From the NCBI GenBank assembly GCA_022606135.1, contig JABYQN010000003.1:2728001-2792000 (forward strand): DNA of 64,000 nt, written 5' to 3'. A program made the position numbers and the translations under genes. Positions 4,152 to 61,519 of the stretch are shown one piece after another; positions within the stretch are counted from its first letter, which is position 1; each line of letters begins with the position of its first letter. This DNA is from Fomes fomentarius. Its lineage: Eukaryota > Basidiomycota > Agaricomycetes > Polyporales > Polyporaceae. The notes below the pieces were generated by a model. That model did not search any database and had not been told where the DNA came from. It saw only the letters and a list, made by a program, of their open reading frames with translations.

Positions 4152-6110
4152 ATGTCTGACTCGGACCCAGGCCCGGATGCTGCTGAGCTTATCTCGACCT
4201 ACCAGAGTCTGTACGTCTTCGCGTCACATCCTTAGACTGATACCTCTGCTTATAGCTCGATGCGACAGATTCGTAGACAACGCATGTGCCTTCGCTGTCC
4301 TAGGTTTGAGGAGGCTTGATAACATACTCAGCTCTGTCTCTGACTGCATCATACAGCCTTCGTCATCTACGACTATGCCATCACCCTCGGGCAGGAAATC
4401 GAGATGTTCTGGAAACGGAAGTTCACTGGGGCGACCGCTCTGTTCTTACTCAACAGGTATCTCCTTGTGCTCGATTACATCTTCAACATAGCCACCATTG
4501 AAAGATCATCCGAGGCCGTAAGTCGTACTTATATGTATCCCTCCCTCGACTAGTCCCCATTCTTACGTTGAACAGGCGTACGTGCAGTTCTTCGTGTAGC
4601 GCAGCTACTCGGAACTCATGAGTTTGGATAGATGTGTCGCCCTAGTCAAAACAGAGAACGTGACGTACAATCTACAGTACCTCCCCTGGGCAGGTGAGGA
4701 CTTCTTGAACATGCATATCCGATGTCCCTCTGTTGACAATACAGGATCTATGTAGTGTTCGGCGCTCTGCGAGCATATGCTCTAACCCGGCAGAATCTAC
4801 CACTCTCGCTCTTCATCGGAGTGCTCACGCTTGTCCCATTCGGGTTGAACATGGTATGACCGATCATACTGCGGTTCCGAATCCCCCGTGTCGTCTAGAT
4901 GATAATTATCGTATATCATAGAGTCAGTTTGGCTCTGGACTAACAGGGACGATCGACCCCATCTTCGGCTGCACGGAAATCCTTCCTGTTGATCCAAACC
5001 TTGCGAAAAAGTAGGTAGCCTTGTGGCTAAATTGTGCCAAGCCCTCCCTTAATTGACGAACTTCTCCTCCCGGACAGATGTGAGCTTGGATTATAGCACC
5101 AAACCACACATTTGCTGACTGTACGCGGATATGCGGACTCGGATGATCGTGTGAAGTCACGATAGCGTCGCGGACAACACAGATAGCTGCGGACCTGCTC
5201 CTCATCGCGATAACTTGGGTATCTCTCCCGCGCCGCTTGCAGATGATGAATATCAGGTCATCTTTCGCCACCGTGCTTTACCAGGATGGTGAGCATGCGC
5301 TTGTCTCAGCCCATCCTGGGAGAAGACTGAATTGTCTGCCGCAGGTCTCATCTATTTTCTGTAGGTTCCTCAGTGTCCTGGACTCCTAGAATCTGAACTT
5401 GATGATATTTCACGGTTAGAGTACTCTTTGTACTAAATAGCCTACACCTCGTCTTCACGATGGTCTCGGTGCGTCACGGTCTACTGATCATATGTCACTG
5501 TATCAATGGAAACACTCCATGCAGATTGTGGACCCGCTGAACCCCGTCAGCAACGTCACGATCTTCACGCTCCCGTGCGTTTCTCCCGCCTTCTCTCCGA
5601 AATTCTTTATGCGCGAGCCACTCACGCATCTGCTGTTCATCTCCCTCCCCCAGGATCACTGCGGTCCTCGTCTCGCGCTTCCTCCTAGACCTGCAGCACG
5701 CGAACCGGGAAACGCTCCACCTCGACTCACAGGGCGAGCCAGGCGAGGACGGACATGCGGACAGCAACATTGGCTCACTCGTGTTTGAGCGCGTCGTCGG
5801 CTCGATCGCATCCACGATCGACTTTGCGAACGGCGAAGAGGGCGAAGAGGACGATGATGAATACCAGGAGGGACGTGGACGAGGCGCGGAGATGCAAGAG
5901 CTCGCGAAGCTCTCAAGCGCCGGATCAGATGCGGATGGGTCGGAAGCGCAGTCCAGTGGCGCTGTGAATGAGGGTGATGATGTGGAGGTGGCTAGGATTC
6001 AGATGGATGCACGAGAGAGGGATGGGGGCGAGAGTCGTTTGAGCGAGTGGAGAGTCTCGTCAAACCGAGGCAGTGTGAGTGGAACTGCGACATCAGCAGT
6101 GTGTGGATGA
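4152..6110 (+). CDS. DUF6533-type multi-pass membrane protein (copy 1)
   Basis: The gene belongs to the basidiomycete DUF6533 family of predicted plasma-membrane proteins, whose function is unknown. Exons that fit in phase are 4152-4210, 4269-4303, 4357-4517, 4600-4693, 4756-4853 and 4922-5010, then a 2-nt exon 5078-5079, 5157-5288, 5345-5360, less certain ones up to about 5640, and a final exon from 5654 to the stop. Diagnostic segments are VIYDYAITLGQEIEMFWKR, LFLLNRYLLVLDYIF, VFGALRAYAL, LFIGVLTLVPFGLN, IASRTTQIAADLLLIAITW and VLVSRFLLDLQ. Several hydrophobic helices are followed by an acidic cytoplasm-like tail of about 110 residues. Exon lengths of 59, 35, 161, 98 and 89 recur in the paralogs. 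The exons around 5361-5650 are not resolved. Confidence 0.8.
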
Positions 6111-14376: not shown

Positions 14377-14455
14377 TGACCACCGCAGGGGTCGAACCTG
14401 CAATCTCCTGATTACCGAGTCGTAGTCAGACGCGTTGCCATTACGCCAGGCGGCC
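14377..14455 (-). tRNA. tRNA-Arg (anticodon ACG) with 7-nt intron, copy 1
   Basis: The cloverleaf folds with acceptor stem GGCCGCC/GGTGGTC, D-stem GCGT/ACGC, anticodon stem TCTGA/TCAGG and T-arm GCAGGTTCGACCCCTGC. The anticodon loop reads CT-ACG-A followed by the intron CTCGGTA and a final A, which is the canonical position after base 37. ACG after A-to-I editing would read CGU, CGC and CGA. The discriminator base is A. Confidence 0.85.
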
Positions 14456-27127: not shown

Positions 27128-27206
27128 GGCCGCCTGGCGTAATGGCAACGCGTCTGACTACGACTTGGTAATCAGGAGATTGCAGGTTCGACCCCTGCGG
27201 TGGTCA
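27128..27206 (+). tRNA. tRNA-Arg (anticodon ACG) with 7-nt intron, copy 2
   Basis: The sequence is identical to the copy at 14377-14455 except for one base in the intron (CTTGGTA instead of CTCGGTA). All stems pair, the anticodon is ACG, and the intron sits after base 37. Confidence 0.87.
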
Positions 27207-29550: not shown

Positions 29551-31235
29551 ATGACTACAGCAGATACTCCCAACGTTGCAGACATCATTTCCGAGTATGC
29601 AGGCTTGTACGTGTCTAACTTCGTAGTCGCGACCTGGCCCTTCATTCTACGACAGGACAGTCCTGAAGGACTGTAACATTGCCTGCACCTGTAAGGCCAT
29701 CTCCTCTGCTGTTGGACTTGAGCTTACCTCCTGCCCTTCCAGCTCTCATCTTTTACGAATATTGTATCACTTTCGACCAAGAGTATATCTTATTCTGGAA
29801 GCGCAAACGCAACGGCGTGTCTATTCTTTACTTTTTGAACCGATACTTCTATCTCGTGTATACGGTGTTCCATGAGGCCAACTATGTCACAATGTCGGAT
29901 AGGGTGAGTACCTCTCTTCGTCATTCTGGTCCTCTCATGACTCCAATATTACGCCCATTATAGAGGTAGGACAATTTCCATAGGGGTTCGGGCCCCTTCG
30001 TCGACAACTCCTAGACGTGCTTATCCCGCATCGTAGCTGTTCCTTCGTGGCGAGAGTGGATTTTGGATTGAATATGTTTGCATATCTTATATGGGCAGGC
30101 ACGTCTCTCTCAAATTCTCAATATCCATCGATTGCTGCTGGACTGAAGCATCTGTTCATAGTCTTCTCAGGGCTACGTGCATCCACATTGAAAAGAAGTC
30201 TGGCGTTGGGCATCGTTGTGTTCCTTCTCTCCATCGTACCCATTGGTATCAATTTGGTATTTTTTTGGAGTCCCCAGGGGGGAGATGATTCTTAATGATG
30301 AATTTTGGACAGAGTCAGTTCGGCAATGGGCTATCCGGAGCCGTCGTCCAGGCGACAGGTTGTCAGGGTGTTGACAATACTTCACTATCTGTCTTTAAGA
30401 TGTGCGTCGCTGATTCTCTTTGTCTCTCGCATGGACTAATATCTATGCAGTTGTACGTCTTCGCAACCTAACCTCCTCAATTATGCTAACTGTATACGCA
30501 CCCTAAGATGTGATCGTGTCCTGCACTTGTCTGATGACTGCGGATATGCTCCTGATTTGGATCACATGGTCCACATTCCCTCAACGATACAAGGTCGAAT
30601 GGTCACCACAGAGGATGACGTTCACAAGTGTTCTGTTGCAAGATGGTGAGAAGCTCCCAGATCAAGCGAGTTCTTACAGCTAACAGCTTGTTGGCAGGTA
30701 CTATATACTTTGTGTATGCTGCTGCTGCACACATGTACCGAGACTCAATCCTCATGTTGTTCCGCTAGTGTCTTGCTCCTGTTGAACACTCTGCATCTCG
30801 TTCTCACAATGCTCTCAGTACGTTGCTCTGCCAGGTGTCTTGTCCGTGTGTATGACTCACGTTATACAGTATCACCCGGCCACTCAAAACGCCAGCTACG
30901 TGACCCTCTTCACAGAGCTGTAAGCGCCAACTAAGCCCTGATATCAGGCTGAAGTCTCATGGCTCTCTAGCGTCACTGCAATACTCGTATTGCGGTTCCT
31001 CCTCGATCTTCAAGCAGCAGAGCGCACGGCTCGTGACCTGAGCCTGTCCGAGGATGAAGTCCGGGCTGACGAGGTGTCATCTTCGAGCGGGCTGGTGTTC
31101 GAGCAGATTGTCGGATCTCTCACTTCAACGGCGATGAGTTTCGGCGGCTCAGAGGACCTACCTCATGTGGATATCGTCGACAGCGTGCCACTGGATGACA
31201 TTCAGCTGGTAGAGAAGCAGTCTCAAGTCAACTAG
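29551..31235 (+). CDS. DUF6533-type multi-pass membrane protein (copy 2)
   Basis: Exons 29551-29606, 29656-29690 (35 nt as in the paralogs) and 29743-29903 (161 nt as in copy 1) encode the start and the diagnostic LIFYEYCITFDQEYILFWKR and LYFLNRYFYLVYTVFHE. Later segments are IVFSGLRASTLKRSLALGIV, INL followed by SQFGNGLSGAVV, IVSCTCLMTADMLLIWITW and LRFLLDLQAAERTARDLS. The stop is at 31233-31235. In-frame joining at 30401-30508 requires a 2-nt exon (TT, 30451-30452) between two normal introns. The C-terminal tail is short and acidic. Function is unknown. Membrane location follows from at least six hydrophobic stretches. Confidence 0.8.
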
Positions 31236-32692: not shown

Positions 32693-34336
32693 TCATCTTG
32701 AGCAGCCTGGTGTGCTTGTGTGAAACTGGGATGTGGCGAAGCGCAGAGTACTCTCCGAGTCTACACTAGAGGCGTTGCGGCATTGGTCGGCTTCTTGCAG
32801 ATCAAGGAGAAAGCGGGAGACGAGGACGCCAGTTACTCTGCAGGCAGAACCAAGAGACGAGAAAACAAGATGTGAGCGAGGATCATGGGCATCACTGAAC
32901 GTCGTGACACTCACAGTTCTATAAAAGAAGACATTCCGCTTGCTCCACCAGTGCCGAAGATCTATGTTCGCAAAGTCATCATCAGGGTCATGTACCGGAA
33001 GGAATATATAGCTACCGAAAGAAACGTGAATGTGATTTGCAGAGTATTCATGATCAGTAAGAGGCTGAAGATTGACTTAGTATACACAGAAGGTGAGAAA
33101 TAAGAGGTACTCACATGAAGTATATAGTACCTGCATGAGATGATTGTACAGTGGTCAGTATCAATCCTTGGTCGTCACGAGACCGAGGGTCTAGGGTCTA
33201 GGGTCTAGGGTCTAGGCTTACCATCGAGTAGTAGGATTCGAGCAAGTGATGAGTGGACTCCGGCGCGAAAAAGACATCGACGAGAGAGGGAGCACCAAGT
33301 AATCACAATGAGCATGATATCGCCCAAAATGAAACTGGACCGCGATATAAACGTCACTACCCATTGGAAGGACGGGTTAGTGCATCGATTGCAATGAATA
33401 AATCTCTTCTTACACACATCTGCATGATGATCACGTCAGAGTGCGATAGCGCAAAGGTAGTGTAGGTGTAGACATACTTAATAGTAAGTTCGTGGGGGAT
33501 ATGGATCTCCTGATGCATCTGGCATCCTGTCAACGGGTCCACTGTGCCATCCATCCCATATCGGAAGAGATACTGGGTCCATGTCAACATCAGGGTTCCA
33601 CCTCACAAGCATGAACTACTTGGAAGAAACGGCGTATGAAGTTGACGCCCATTGGAATAACTGAGAGGAGAAATACGAGTATCGATAGGGGGCGGCTCCT
33701 GCTTAATGCAAGGGCACGCATCGCAGAGAATGCTACAATGTCGTACATGATCAGTTCCCGTTCATGTCATCCAAAAACAGAATCTTGCTCACCACCCCAA
33801 GGCAGTAGCTGTAGAATCTCAACCACGAAGTCGGCAATGATGAGACGACTGCAACTGTGTGTGATTTCAGTCTATCTTCCGTGTGAGTGTTGACTGATCC
33901 GAGTTCCATACCTCTGGGAAGTATATGCGTCAGTCAGCTGCACTTCTCACAAGAGTGGTAGAGTGACTCACCTCGTCCGAAGTTCCAAGCGGTGTTAGCC
34001 AGTCGAGGAGGTGCTTCAGGAGGGTCATACACTTGTTGGAGAAGAACAGGATCGATGCGGCCGTGATCGGCCTTCTCCAGAACACCTCAACCTCTCGGCC
34101 AGTGTTCAGTAGATAGTCATAGATCATAAAGACTTGTATATGCGCATGTCAGAGTCGGCGGGACAAGATGCACTGAAGGCAAATGTGAAGTGCTCTACCT
34201 GCTGCGGCATTCGCCAAGTAGCTTGCAACCGTGCTTCATCATGAAAACATGGTGAGTAAGATCCTTTGAGACTATGGAGCTACTAGCATACGTACTTGGC
34301 ATACCATTCATCACTGATCTCCGCAGGGGATGTCAT
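32693..34336 (-). CDS. DUF6533-type multi-pass membrane protein (copy 3)
   Basis: The minus-strand start at 34336 encodes MTSPAEISDEWYAK, followed after introns by ATVASYLANAA and the diagnostic VFMIYDYLLNTGREVEVFWRR and ASILFFSNKCMTLLKHLLDWL. Further down are GTVDPLTGCQ, FISRSSFILGDIMLIVITW and VLVSRFLLDLQEADQ. The reading frame between exon end 33478 and exon start 33356 works only with a 2-nt exon (AT) at 33418-33419. The acidic tail is shorter than in copies 4-6. Some middle exons (33600-33930) are not resolved, so intactness is not certain. It points towards copy 2 (tail to tail). Confidence 0.7.
33187..33214. repeat. (GGGTCTA)4 telomere-like tandem repeat
   Basis: Four perfect 7-bp units lie within an intron-dense part of DUF6533 copy 3. 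Confidence 0.9.
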
Positions 34337-45230: not shown

Positions 45231-47018
45231 ATGTCCTCCAATTCTACCGATGCTGACTTCGCCGGAATTTTGGCTCTCTACCAGACCTTGTAAGCATCCC
45301 AAAACAAACTCTCTGCATTTCATCATTGACTCATGCGCTCCAGCCGTCCAAACAATTACTGTACGGTGGCAACAGCAGGTCAGCCTCCGTCGGCATCTGG
45401 TCTGTTCTGATATATACTGAATGGTTGCGCTGCCCTCAGTTTTCCTCATATACGACGCTCTTGTCACTATGGATCGTGAAGTAGAGTGCTTCTGGCGGGT
45501 GGAAGGCAGAGTTACCGGTCCCAAAATTCTGTTCTTCACAAACAGATTCACATCAATACTCCCGTATGTCCTCCACTTGATGCAGCAAATGCAACTTTCG
45601 GATGAAGTAAGTCTATGAACCTCACTCAGTCCAGCTCTTCACGAACTTGCCGCTTATCAGCACTCCCCAGAGGTATGGCAGCTGTCTGATTATGTCTCTG
45701 GAGAAGGCGAATTGCTGAATGGTACACAAAGCTGTACATATCTCGCACGAATAGCGCGTGCTTTTGACTCTGCGCAGTTTCTTCCCTCGGCGGGTGAGCA
45801 GGTCTTTTTTGCCAGTGTTCACTATGCACGAACGAGGGGCTCATACAGCGGCATCAGGGTTCTCTGCTCTCCGTGTACTCGTGCTGAGCGGGAACAACAT
45901 CCCCATATCCATTCTGGTTTTCATTCTTGGTCTTGTGCCCTTCGGTACCACCATGGTATGATACTCCTCGGCTCGGGCTCGTTCTCATATATTCAAAGCC
46001 ACGAAATCCACCAGGTAGCGTTGTCTTTTCCTAATTACGGGAAGGCGTTTGCAGGGATTGGGTGCATGTGGGATGTAGAGATCACATCTCAAACCAATAT
46101 CAGGTTCGTCTGCCACACGGTGACTTGTATCACCTGCTGATTCAAAGATCAGAAGTACGCATATGTGTATCCAGAGAAGCTAGATACACCGCTGACACCT
46201 CACCATGCATCGGCTCAAAAGTGATCTTCATCTCCAGGATTTTTCTGATCGTTTCAGACACCATCCTCATTCTGATTACCTGGCGGAGTCCCATGACTCG
46301 TAACAGGCGTGGCAAGATCCATTCAGGAACGAGACGGACACTGGGCACGATCATCGTACAAAATGGTACGCACGATTTCTCGATCTCTCCATTACTGCTT
46401 TTGATCAAGAACAATGTTCCAGGGACCGTATACTTCGTGTGCGTTAGTGTTGGTTTGTATCGACAGTGCCGGCTGGGTGTACTGAACTCCTCCTCTTCAC
46501 AGAGTCCTACTGTGTCTGAATGTCTTACATCTGGCATTCTCATTCGACAATGTAAGTTAATACATCAGAGAAGTGAAGTGTTGCGAGTGACCCGTGACAT
46601 GTATGCATGCAGATCGTCGGCGATGGAAACCGGCATAGTCTCATCCCCGCCTTCACCGCTCCGTACGTCCACGATCATCCGACTACTTACTGGTCATCAC
46701 ACCAACCTTCTTGCACTATCTCATACTCCCCTCCACCGTATGTATAGGATAACGACTGTCCTGACCTCGCACTTTCTCCTCCAACTCCAAGAAGCACATC
46801 GGAGGACCGTGAAGGTAGACTCCGACGATGTCCTCAACCTCGGAGATCACAGCGGCAGCACCCCGAGCTTTGTAGCCCAGGTCATTGGGTCGATCGGCTC
46901 TGAACTCCGATTTTCGGAACATGAGGATGAGGGCAGCGCTGCTTGCAATGAGCTGGAGCATGCTGCATGCACAGACGTCCAGGAGGTCCACCTTCATGAA
47001 CGCCACCGCTACACCTAG
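45231..47018 (+). CDS. DUF6533-type multi-pass membrane protein (copy 4)
   Basis: Exons in phase are 45231-45289, 45344-45378, 45440-45606, 45661-45793, 45858-45955, 46015-46103, a 17-nt exon 46148-46164, then 46222 onward to the stop at 47016-47018, with further introns. Exons 2, 5 and 6 have the same lengths (35, 98, 89) as in copy 1. The protein shows FLIYDALVTMDREVECFWR, PKILFFTNRFTSILPYVLH, FSALRVLVLSGNNIPISILV, FISRIFLIVSDTILILITW and ILTSHFLLQLQEAHRR, followed by a long acidic tail. It faces the ruined chitin deacetylase at 47290-48640. This appears to be an intact copy. Its role is unknown. Confidence 0.83.
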
Positions 47019-51453: not shown

Positions 51454-53446
51454 ATGTCCTCTGACTCCACAGATACAGATGTTGCTGCACTTGTGGCCTT
51501 GTATAGCAACTTGTAGGTATACTGCCCCAGTTGTGTTTCAAATGTCACCTTCTGACTGCTTGCATATGAATGTAGGCACCTCACGAATTACTGTAATGTG
51601 GCAGCAAACGGTCAGTTTCACTCAGAGATTGACTCCTTGTGACTTACACTGTTTGCTGCAATGCCCTTAGTGTTGCTTATATATGCCACTCTTGTCACCT
51701 TCGACCACGAAGTGAACTTGTTCTGGTCAGGCAAAATGACTGGGGCTAGGATTCTGTTTTTTGCAAACAGATACCTATCCCTGTGCTGGATGGTTCTCAG
51801 TTTGATCACACTTGCACCCTTCTCTGACAAGGCAAGCTATGAAGCACTAGTATGGCTAGTGCAAATCTCTAACACTCTGCTGCCCCGCATTGATAATGCT
51901 GATTCAGAGGTGTGATGGCTTGCTAGTGACAGTTTTCCCAGAGCAGATTGCTGATGACTCATGAGCATTATAGCTGCACATACATGGAAAGAGTGGAACT
52001 TGTTTTGAACTGTCTTCAATTTACGGCACCAGCTGGTGAGTTATTCTTTTTGTCTTGCATCCTGATCGTGTATCAAAGGTTTATGCTAGAACACTCCAGT
52101 GTTCTCTACACTCCGTGCATTTGTGCTGAGCAGAAACAAAACCCTCTCAATTTGTGTCCTCACTCTTGGTCTTGTACCAGTTGGGACCAATCTGGTATGA
52201 TGAGAGTCCTTCAATACCACCTATGCTCTGTACTGACTTCTACAAAGGCACCAGTGCTTGTGCCCAATTATGGGAAACATTTTGCCAGCTTTCAATGTCT
52301 GTTGTTTTATCAGATGCCATCATCCATGACCAGTCTCAAGTTTGTCCTCACATAGCTTGCTTGCATCAACATCCACTAACATGTAGACAGATGTGAAGCT
52401 CCTGCATGCCACAGCCAGCTGAGATGACTAACTCATGATTGATCCTACTAGTGACAATTGTGTCAAGGGTATCACTCATTGTTGCAGATGGGATTCTTAT
52501 TCTGATCACCTGGACAAGTCCAATGACCCGAGGTTTACATACCAATATCCACAAAGACAAGAGACAGTCACTGGGTGCAATTCTGATCCAAAATGGTGAG
52601 CAGTGGCCACTATCTCTTTGCACGCACTACATTGTTCATGATATGGGAACTGTAGGGACTATGTACTTCATGTGAGTGGGCATTGGGCTGATGAGTACAG
52701 TCTGTGTTGAACAACCCTCACAAAGTGTGCTGCTGTGTCTCAATATTTGCCATCTGTCATTCTCCTTGACAAATGTAAGCCCAGAGTTCAGAAACATACA
52801 CAGCCATTATTTATATTTGCTCATGCCAATGAAATTATGTATGTAGTTCTTTGGTTCTGGAGGTGGGGAAAGTGAAGTCACTGAGTTCACTGCTCCGTGC
52901 GTTTATGACTAGAGTTACTGCATATACTAGCTGATTTGCACCTTTGATCCCCTGTCTAGGATAACAACAATCCTCATCTCGCACTTCCTCCTCGACCTCC
53001 AAGAAGCATACCGACGAACAGTCAGGGTCGACCCCGACAATATCCTCAATCTCGGAAGCAACAACAGCACACCAAGCTTCGTAGACCGAGTCATTGGGTC
53101 AATCGGCTCTGACATCCATTTCCCTGCACCTGATGCCGAAGACAACTCAGACACCACTGATCCCGGACCGGAGAATGCACCAGGAAATAGGTCAGAAGAC
53201 AGGGAGAACATCCGGCGAATCCTCTCCGACTCTGAAGGCCAGCTTGGAGACGAGGAGGCGATTCCCATTGAAATCACTGCCGGGTCGAGCGGTTTCGCCA
53301 GTGTTATCAACATTGGAGGACCGGCTAAACGGCAGGAGGACGGTCTTACTCACGCCGACGCACCATGGGAGGATGGCAAAGATATCCTTGAGGTTCCCCG
53401 TACACCGGTTGGGCATGTTGGCTCGGAAAATAGGGTTTTTCCATGA
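51454..53446 (+). pseudogene. DUF6533-type membrane protein gene (copy 5), probably broken by a 7-nt insertion
   Basis: Exons 51454-51512, 51576-51610 and 51671 onward encode MSSDSTDTDVAALVALYSNL and VLLIYATLVTFDHEVNLFW, then ARILFFANRYLSLCWMVL. Intron 3 begins with GC (AAG|GCAAGC). The next exon should read like copy 6 (RCDGLL..FPEQIAD), but a 7-base insertion near 51957-51964, absent from copy 6, brings stops into frame. Downstream exons remain good: VLVPNYGKHFASF, the 2-nt exon 52391-52392, TIVSRVSLIVADGILILITW, ILISHFLLDLQEAYRRT and a 160-residue acidic tail. It may be a recent pseudogene unless the extra bases are spliced out. A TATAAG box lies at 51409-51414. Confidence 0.6.
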
Positions 53447-59551: not shown

Positions 59552-61519
59552 TCATGGGAAAGCTCTGGTCTCCAAGCAACCATGCACGACCGGTGTACGG
59601 GGGACCTCGAGGATGACCTCGCTGTCCTCCCATGCAGCGTCGGCAAGACCGTCCTCCTCCTGCCTGCACTCTGGTCTCCCAATGTTGATAACAGGACTGC
59701 TCAGCCCAATGATCCCGATGTGAGTGGCCTCCTCATCTCCAAGATGGCCTTCAGAGTCAGAGTGGATTGGTTGGATGTCCTCCCTGTCTCCTTGTGCATC
59801 CTCCGCATCAGTACAAGTGGGATGATCATCCTCACCCGGCCGCTCAGGCGTGGCAAAATGGATGTCAGAGCCAATTGACCCGATCATTCGGTCTACAAAG
59901 CTTGGGGTGCTGCTATTGCTCCCGAGATTGAGGGCATCATCAGAGTCAACCCTGACTGTTTGCTGGTATGCTTCTTGGAGGTCAAGGAGGAAGTGTGAGA
60001 TGAGGATAGTTGTGATCCTGGACAAGCAATAAAAGATGTAAATCAGCTAGTAAATGCAGTAACTGTGGTCAATAACACACGGAGTGGTGAACACAATGAT
60101 GTCACTTTCTACATATCCAATGCCAAAGATCTACATGCACAGTTGCACAGTTTCACTGGTGTGAGCATACATCAACAATGTCCATATATGTTTTAGACTC
60201 TGGGCTTACATTTGCTAAGGAGAATGCCAGGTGGAGAACATTGAGACACAGTAGCACACTTTGTGAGGAATGTTCAGCACAGACTGTACTCATCAGCCCA
60301 ATGCCAACTCACATGAAGTAGATAGTTCCTGTAGTTCCCATATCACATACAGTGCACATATAAAGAGATGATGGCAGCTGCTCACCATTTTGGACCAGGA
60401 TTGCACCCAATGACTGTCTCTTGTCTTTGTGGATATTGATACGTAGACCTTGAGTCATTGGACTCATCCAGGTGATCAGAATAAGGATAGCATCAGACAC
60501 AATGACTGATATCCTAGACACAAAAATCACTAATATCAATGGTCCAGTGAGTTGTCTTAGTTGGTCTCATCAGCTCCAAAATGCGAGACTCCTACATCTT
60601 CTCTACATGTTAGCCAATATTGAAGTGAATAAGGTATGTGCAGACGAACTTGAGAGCAGTTCCAGGTGACATTTCAAGATCCATCACACATCCAAGGTTG
60701 GCAAAAGTTTCCCCATGATTGGGCACCAACACTGTTCCCTTTGTAAAAGTTAGTGAAGAGTATATGTGGTGCTAAATGCACTTATCATACCAGATTGGGC
60801 CCAACTGGTATAAGACCAAGAGTGAGGACACAAATTGATAGGGTTTTGTTTCTGCTCAGCACAAATGCACGCAGTGTAGAAAACACTAGAGTGTTTTAGC
60901 ATAAACCTTTGATACACAACTAGGATGCAAGGCAGAAAGAATAACTCACCAGCTGGTGGGATATATCGAAGACAGGTCAAAACAAGTTCCACTCTTTCCA
61001 TGTATGTGCAGCTATAGTGCTCATCAGCAATCTGTTCTGGGGAGAATGTCAGTAGTAAGCCATCACACCTCTGAGTCAGCATTTTCAGCAGGGGGCAGCA
61101 GAGTGTCAGATATTTGCAACAGTCATAGAGCTTGACAACTTGCCTTGTCTGAGAAGGGTGCATATAAGATTAAGTTGAGAACAATCCAGAACAGGGATAG
61201 GTATCTGTTTGCAAGAAACAAAATCCTAGCCCCAGACATTCTGCCTGTCCAGAACCAGTCTACTTCGTGGCTGAAGGTGAGAAGAGTGTCATATATGAGG
61301 AGCACTAAGGGCAACCAGTGTCAGTCACAAGAAATCGTTTTCAGAGTGAAACTGACTGCTAGCTGCCACAGAGCAGTAGTTTCCAAGGTCTCTACATCCA
61401 TATGCAAGCAATCAGGCTCTAAAACAAATGCAATGAATCCTTGGGAGTAAGTATACTTACAGCTTGGCATACGAAGTCACAAAATCAGCAACATCTGTAT
61501 CTGTGAAGTTGGAGGACAT
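59552..61519 (-). CDS. DUF6533-type multi-pass membrane protein (copy 6)
   Basis: The first exon 61461-61519 (59 nt) encodes MSSNFTDTDVADFVTSYAKL and the second (35 nt) DLGNYCSVAAS. The third shows LLIYDTLLTFSHEVDWFW and ARILFLANRYLSLFWIVLN. Intron 3 starts AAG|GCAAGT, a GC-AG intron, and joins in frame to RCDGLLLTFSPEQIADEHY. Further segments are NHGETFANLGCVM, the 2-nt exon 60596-60597, FVSRISVIVSDAILILITW, ILISHFLLDLQEAYQQT and an acidic tail of about 130 residues ending EVPRTPVVHGCLETRAFP, close to copy 5. This appears to be the intact partner of the damaged copy 5. Confidence 0.8.

Follow-up and report, generated by a model that had tools for sequence, protein, structure and literature searches.

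The window described here, a stretch of 64,000 nucleotides (nt), covers positions 2728001-2792000 of contig C3 in the genome of Fomes fomentarius (Polyporales; 40.9 megabases [Mb] in 24 contigs) and holds six genes of the DUF6533 family (PF20151), with copies 1, 2, 4, and 5 on the forward (+) strand and copies 3 and 6 on the reverse (-) strand. Each of these genes carries two sites at which an exon of only two nucleotides is predicted to lie between two short introns. In F. fomentarius the family is predicted to comprise over a hundred genes, encoding putative membrane proteins. A Pfam search of the genome yielded at least 150 DUF6533 matches (215 candidates, 150 of them scored), and all 150 listed matches exceeded the Pfam cut-off for this family, as did all 14 gene models that were scanned. 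Of the 150 matches listed, 43 belong to a strong local expansion on C3 at about 2.52-3.38 Mb, which includes the window. A sequence search of solved structures returned no match. One member of the family, SNB1, is reportedly required for mushroom patterning.

The first of the two sites, designated site B, precedes the exon for the TIVSR helix and has the layout loop exon, intron 1, two letters (NN), intron 2, helix exon. The pattern AG|NN|GT was present before the helix exon in all six window copies. The earlier note on this DNA had placed AG|AT|GT at 5078-5079, 33418-33419, 52391-52392, and 60596-60597 (copies 1, 3, 5, and 6) and TT at 30451-30452 in copy 2, and every one of these, including AG|TT|GT, was re-found in the sequence. 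The details it gave for copies 1, 3, 5, and 6 were also confirmed, namely, an upstream exon ending in AA in phase 2, a helix exon starting with TC or TG in phase 1, flanking introns of 51-77 nt, and an AA+AT join that yields the predicted junctions Lys-Phe in copy 1 and Lys-Leu in copies 3, 5, and 6. The upstream-exon phase does not count as separate evidence, since the window script prescribed it and in the family-wide enumerations it is a consequence of the frame rule. For copy 4 the earlier note had assumed a 17-nt exon; since this copy has CAG|AA|GTACGC at 46153-46154, which gives a 2-nt exon, the longer one is unnecessary. The pattern also extends to most of the examined paralogs elsewhere in the genome, a spread that the earlier note had not recognized. 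The predicted features of site B are as follows.

5011..5077, +: copy 1, intron 1 (67 nt, GTAGGT..CAG)
5078..5079, +: copy 1, predicted 2-nt exon AT, Lys-Phe junction
5080..5156, +: copy 1, intron 2 (77 nt, GTGAGC..AAG)
30402..30450, +: copy 2, intron 1
30451..30452, +: copy 2, predicted 2-nt exon TT, Ile-Tyr junction
30453..30507, +: copy 2, intron 2
33420..33477, -: copy 3, intron 1
33418..33419, -: copy 3, predicted 2-nt exon AT, Lys-Leu
33357..33417, -: copy 3, intron 2
46104..46152, +: copy 4, intron 1 (second by score, 10.9 vs 11.6; picked by loop-exon homology)
46153..46154, +: copy 4, predicted 2-nt exon AA, Arg-Met, replacing the 17-nt exon
46155..46221, +: copy 4, intron 2
52340..52390, +: copy 5, intron 1
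52391..52392, +: copy 5, predicted 2-nt exon AT, Lys-Leu
52393..52451, +: copy 5, intron 2
60598..60649, -: copy 6, intron 1
60596..60597, -: copy 6, predicted 2-nt exon AT, Lys-Leu
60530..60595, -: copy 6, intron 2

The other site, designated site A, was missed by the earlier note and is a predicted second 2-nt exon in each gene. Here AG|NN|GT lies amid two introns between the DUF6533 exon and the next exon, again in all six window copies. Two bases are needed at this place because the DUF6533 exon ends in phase 0 and the next exon starts one base before a conserved Cys codon. The window script allowed only GT donors and for this reason made improbable choices at site A of copies 5 and 6, whose GC donors were read by eye. 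GC-AG introns adjoin 2-nt exons at site A of these two copies and at site B of the paralog L009, which has a GC donor in the arrangement AG|AT|GCAAGT. The predicted features of site A are listed below.

4518..4575, +: copy 1, intron 1 (GTAAGT..CAG)
4576..4577, +: copy 1, predicted 2-nt exon GC, Ala before the conserved Cys
4578..4631, +: copy 1, intron 2 (GTACGT..TAG)
29904..29963, +: copy 2, intron 1
29964..29965, +: copy 2, predicted 2-nt exon AG, Ser
29966..30036, +: copy 2, intron 2
33914..33971, -: copy 3, intron 1
33912..33913, -: copy 3, predicted 2-nt exon AG, Ser
33855..33911, -: copy 3, intron 2
45607..45670, +: copy 4, intron 1
45671..45672, +: copy 4, predicted 2-nt exon AG, Ser
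45673..45731, +: copy 4, intron 2
51832..51907, +: copy 5, intron 1, with a GC donor following Ser-Asp-Lys (by eye; 51850 in the script, which was limited to GT)
51908..51909, +: copy 5, predicted 2-nt exon AG, Ser
51910..51973, +: copy 5, intron 2
61071..61143, -: copy 6, intron 1, with a GC donor (by eye; 61182 in the script limited to GT, at a score of 0.6)
61069..61070, -: copy 6, predicted 2-nt exon AG, Ser
61012..61068, -: copy 6, intron 2

The objects of the family-wide analysis were 110 of the 150 listed loci; two further loci, being window copies, were read in the window. A helix profile anchored 106 of the 110 loci, a few of them weakly (E up to 0.7), and the helix acceptor AG was found at the same base and in the same phase in 99 of the 106. 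For site A, 77 of the 106 loci were evaluable, and 29 without a clear anchor were left out. Spacing was counted as AG-N{m}-GT located 45-90 nt upstream of the acceptor, with m from 0 to 24, and was independent of both the frame and the choice of upstream donor. At site B, m=2 was found in 85/99 loci, against 4-34 loci (mean 13.9) for the other 24 spacings, and at site A in 70/77 loci, against 3-39 (mean 13.7). The strict pattern YAG-N2-GTRNGY occurred in 35/99 (site B) and 26/77 (site A) loci, while the other spacings had a mean of 0.83 and a maximum of 5. At an ordinary acceptor of the same genes, taken as a control, m=2 was present in 8/87 loci with the relaxed pattern and in 1/87 with the strict one. 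The AG|NN|GT spacing is thus beyond chance, as the earlier note had argued from its preservation in diverged copies. At site A, the count for m=0 was also raised (35/77), because NN is often AG; the raised count for m=6 probably reflects the second GT within the donor consensus GTNNGT.

The reading frame pointed to the same length. When exon lengths of 1-30 nt were enumerated with the frame taken into account, length 2 was the best in 69/90 loci at site B and 62/77 at site A. With the outer sites fixed, it was the best in 64/89 and 54/77 loci, compared with 3.7% and 4.3% of dinucleotide shuffles; less reliance was placed on this test than on the spacing count because the upstream donor was taken from the frame-aware models. 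A 2-nt exon that was the best in the length enumeration or within 3 score units of it was regarded as selected, which was the case at site B in 74 of the 106 anchored loci. The median lengths of the flanking introns in the selected models were 56 and 59 nt at site B and 57 and 57 nt at site A. The arrangement corresponds to an ultrashort coding microexon, since a canonical acceptor and donor lie 2 nt apart between introns of normal length, and the two letters are needed for the frame, as indicated by the enumeration, the intron-lacking paralogs, and the search for single introns described below.

The two letters also behave as coding sequence. The second letter at site B, which would be the first base of a codon, is T or C in 67/74 genes versus about half in background AGNNGT, and the resulting codon is Leu or Phe in 58/74. 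The first letter, which would be a third codon base, is a purine in 17/20 cases after AA and a pyrimidine in 12/12 cases after CA (Fisher p 2e-6, a value inflated by relatedness). At site A, the codon specifies Ser in 28/68 and Gly in 14/68 genes.

Some paralogs retain the two letters in a larger exon. Intron 1 of site B is missing in L012, L028, and L098, where the letters sit in frame on the upstream exon, which has a phase-1 donor. L081 lacks intron 2 and carries the letters in frame on the helix exon (by eye), and L078 probably lacks this intron as well. L012, L028, L098, and L081 are located at three places in the tree of 101 genes, which was rooted at the midpoint and has several weak nodes, including some of those concerned here. 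Four other loci (L024, L046, L073, and L084) fit an 8-nt exon at site B, corresponding to 2 nt plus two codons, with the similar products TAIR, QGLR, QGKR, and QGQH.

One clade of eight paralogs (L034, L059, L072, L093, L097, L111, L112, and L115; support 0.99) does not have AG|NN|GT at site B. Its members share the sequence ...T|G[GTRNG...YAG]TRNGY...AG|TG, with slight variation in some cases, so that a predicted internal intron splits the donor of an external one between G1 and T2. Removal of the inner intron would build the donor from G+T and keep the frame, with Leu at the junction in 5/8 genes and Pro, Met, or Val in the others. This fits the structure of a [D1,2] stwintron, or twin intron (PMC12403724, PMC6616335). 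The [D1,2] model was the best in all eight genes, and its frame-free motif was found in 8/8 clade members, 0/91 other loci, and 7/1600 shuffles. By score only, [D1,2] was also listed for L073 (-0.2) and L108 (16.0 vs 12.9, with a shortened loop exon), neither of which has the strict motif. At site A, seven of the eight clade members still prefer 2 nt, and the eighth was not evaluable. The remark in the earlier note that the intron pair could be processed like a twin intron fits this clade but not the other 91 loci.

The tree suggests that the 2-nt state is the older one and that the stwintron arose from it a single time. The pair may first have been reduced to one intron, whose donor was then interrupted by the gain of another. 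It seems probable that the site-B pair switches among four states, namely, 2 nt, 8 nt, fusion through loss of either intron, and the nested [D1,2] stwintron. Microexons and twin introns would then be the ends of one evolutionary path within a receptor-like family that would have two obligate 2-nt exons per gene and splice them stepwise.

Taken together, in most of the examined DUF6533 genes two bases at each of two sites are very likely joined into the messenger RNA (mRNA) as 2-nt exons. This probably takes place in two successive steps, of which the first removes the upstream intron. Both the inclusion of the two letters in mature mRNA and the order of splicing we infer from genomic sequence. 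Two ordered reactions are proposed because the intron 1 acceptor and the intron 2 donor, only two bases apart, would be too close for simultaneous binding. Each intron would be recognized in turn by intron definition, which is expected because the introns are short. If intron 1 is removed first, the upstream exon would gain NN, and intron 2, its donor still intact, could then be spliced by a second, ordinary reaction. Skipping of NN would shift the frame. This order is favored because the first donor is stronger than the second (score 3.05 vs 1.75) and because the stwintron clade imposes an inside-out order. Stepwise logic has also been proposed for a 1-nt exon in Arabidopsis, according to the available part of PMC4674806.

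Deposited proteins provided a further comparison. Protein searches returned 91 proteins, 64 of which passed the 35% identity cut for comparison of the sites. Each was compared with the nearest of 53 spliced models, which was sometimes a paralog and not the gene itself (e.g., for P0003, P0020, and P0049). These models are diverse: their median pairwise protein identity is 0.35, and single-linkage clustering groups them into 32 clusters at 60% identity, 23 at 50%, and 6 at 40%. Two F. fomentarius proteins, P0006 (L071) and P0083 (L026), have exactly the predicted product of site A, which could be obtained from no single GT/GC-AG intron. Among the proteins of other species, 12/23 were gap-free at site B by script and 11/23 were not. 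Eight of the gap-free proteins have the helix motif, including P0002, P0041, P0042, and P0045 from polypores, along with P0048, P0056, P0081, and P0082, while the gap-free P0050, P0054, P0084, and P0087 were not counted as support because this motif is absent. No clear F. fomentarius transcript was found among the matches listed in these searches. The proposal of 2-nt exons in the earlier note has thus withstood the examination of spacing, frame, intron-lacking paralogs, single introns, and, at site A, two deposited proteins.

Several observations weigh against 2-nt exons. The loci are paralogs with shared ancestry and are not independent, and the splice-site scoring matrices were derived from the same DUF6533 genes. 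At site B, 32/106 loci were not selected as 2-nt. AG|NN|GT was present but not selected or scored in 12 loci (L020, L022, L037, L043, L047, L049, L054, L074, L095, L096, L108, and L114); nine of them were re-fitted, and L020, L043, and L108 gave poor or doubtful fits. L041 and L117 were not assigned to any of the states of site B. The searches found 22 deposited proteins of F. fomentarius. None of the 16 that span site B is gap-free there, and the exact predicted product of site A appears in only 2 of the 18 that span that site. The donor following NN is weaker than the ordinary donor of the same genes (1.75 vs 2.64). As to the order of removal, the available part of PMC4674806 offers a precedent for the opposite one, namely, a 9-nt exon in potato invertase.

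Several other readings were tested and rejected for most genes, namely, removal of a single intron, retention of an intron, use of a GC donor close to the outer sites, recursive splicing at a zero-length site, and a twin intron. If one intron with other borders were removed, AG|NN|GT would be a coincidence, and the deposited models do treat site B in various ways, either as a single intron or with part of the sequence retained. A search within 15 nt of the outer sites found no single GT/GC-AG intron that keeps an open frame in 47/74 genes and some such alternative in 27/74. Most of these alternatives rely on a GC donor or a weak GT donor and vary among the genes; L079 and L082 are the clear exceptions. 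Removal of a single intron would also leave unexplained both the m=2 spacing peak and the intron-lacking paralogs, and we consider it highly unlikely. Retention of intron 1 would leave an open frame in 3/74 genes, that of intron 2 in 5/74, and that of both in none.

An explanation in which every pair is a stwintron or a recursive site of zero length, so that no letters remain between the introns, fits the clade of eight and could appeal to site A, where NN is often AG and AGAG|GT could serve as a zero-length ratchet point. It is contradicted by the lack of the strict split donor in the 91 other loci and by the frame set by the flanking exons, which requires 2 nt at both sites and would be broken by removal of the two letters, and it is extremely unlikely. 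The arrangement could also be real even though most transcripts skip or mis-splice the 2-nt exons, giving truncated products or a regulatory switch. Skipping would bring a stop codon within 140 nt of the helix exon in 56/74 genes at site B and within 60 nt in 17/68 at site A, and the second donor is the weaker one. The coding pattern of NN and the conservation of the downstream helix in diverged paralogs, on the contrary, suggest selection on the full-length protein, and predominant skipping appears quite improbable.

The deposited F. fomentarius models insert or drop residues in different ways at site B. Since the deposited gene models that were compared break at this site, the receptor-like DUF6533 family is likely mis-annotated in F. 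fomentarius, and some models of other polypores look broken there too.

Ultrashort exons as such are known, and a length of two nucleotides is close to the known minimum. One close likeness is CYP621A of Fusarium, a fungal coding gene in which out-of-phase exons are joined by a 1-nt exon between short introns and an intronless relative serves as a control, comparable to the intron-lacking DUF6533 paralogs (PMC12940212, available part). It differs in that the exon is 1 nt long, at one site of one orthologous ascomycete gene, and documented by RNA reads, whereas the DUF6533 exons are 2 nt long, at two sites per gene in a large basidiomycete paralog family, and predicted from genomic sequence. 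The 1-nt exons of plant APC11 (Arabidopsis) and VPS55 are also conserved and shorter than 3 nt, and intron-less relatives keep the nucleotide in a larger exon; these genes are low-copy and RNA-verified, and the accessible portions of the sources mention no conversion to twin introns (PMC4674806, PMC8831610). In [D1,2] stwintrons, as far as the excerpts cited above describe them, two adjacent short U2 introns are removed stepwise, which fits the eight paralogs, but no exon is left between the introns, while most DUF6533 genes need two letters there. Exons of the same length, 2 base pairs (bp), are annotated in human GRK6 (a minor transcript) and SEPT7 (PMC9929638, available part); those are two human genes, whereas the DUF6533 exons recur within a family and are predicted to be constitutive. 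The P450 genes of Phanerochaete chrysosporium, likewise a multigene family in a basidiomycete, contain numerous tiny exons and often have introns of 45-55 bp, but their shortest exon is 6 bp according to the text available from PMC1184071, compared with 2 nt in DUF6533 genes.

In the open-licence literature, searches turned up no description of 2-nt exons either for DUF6533 genes or for basidiomycetes, and no mention of microexons was found in the accessible parts of the literature on DUF6533. As far as our searches reach, the new aspects are the family scale, the occurrence of two such sites in each gene, and the conversion into a stwintron. If confirmed by RNA, 2-nt exons would represent a stable heritable architecture shared by scores of paralogs in one genome, and the genes would form a natural replicate series for studying the use and order of an acceptor and a donor two bases apart. 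The [D1,2] clade and the intron-lacking paralogs could provide a direct test of the origins of twin introns and microexons.

A few other candidates were set aside. P0055 (320 amino acids, on a contig of 1116 bases) has NKL across site B, but it matches at only 33%; P0026, P0030, P0031, and P0038, long proteins on short contigs, were too diverged. Pairwise identity of intron DNA in gapped global alignments (median 0.65) was uninformative and was dropped.

A further microexon follows the helix exon in 43/106 loci according to a simple pattern (e.g., L038, L063, and L075); it is 16 nt long in 37 of the 43 and often encodes TLYF. The window also contains two transfer RNA genes, at 14377-14455 (-) and 27128-27206 (+), which have the same Rfam score and are possibly duplicates. 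A short tandem repeat with the unit GGGTCTA is located at about 33187-33215, within copy 3 toward its 3' end or close by.
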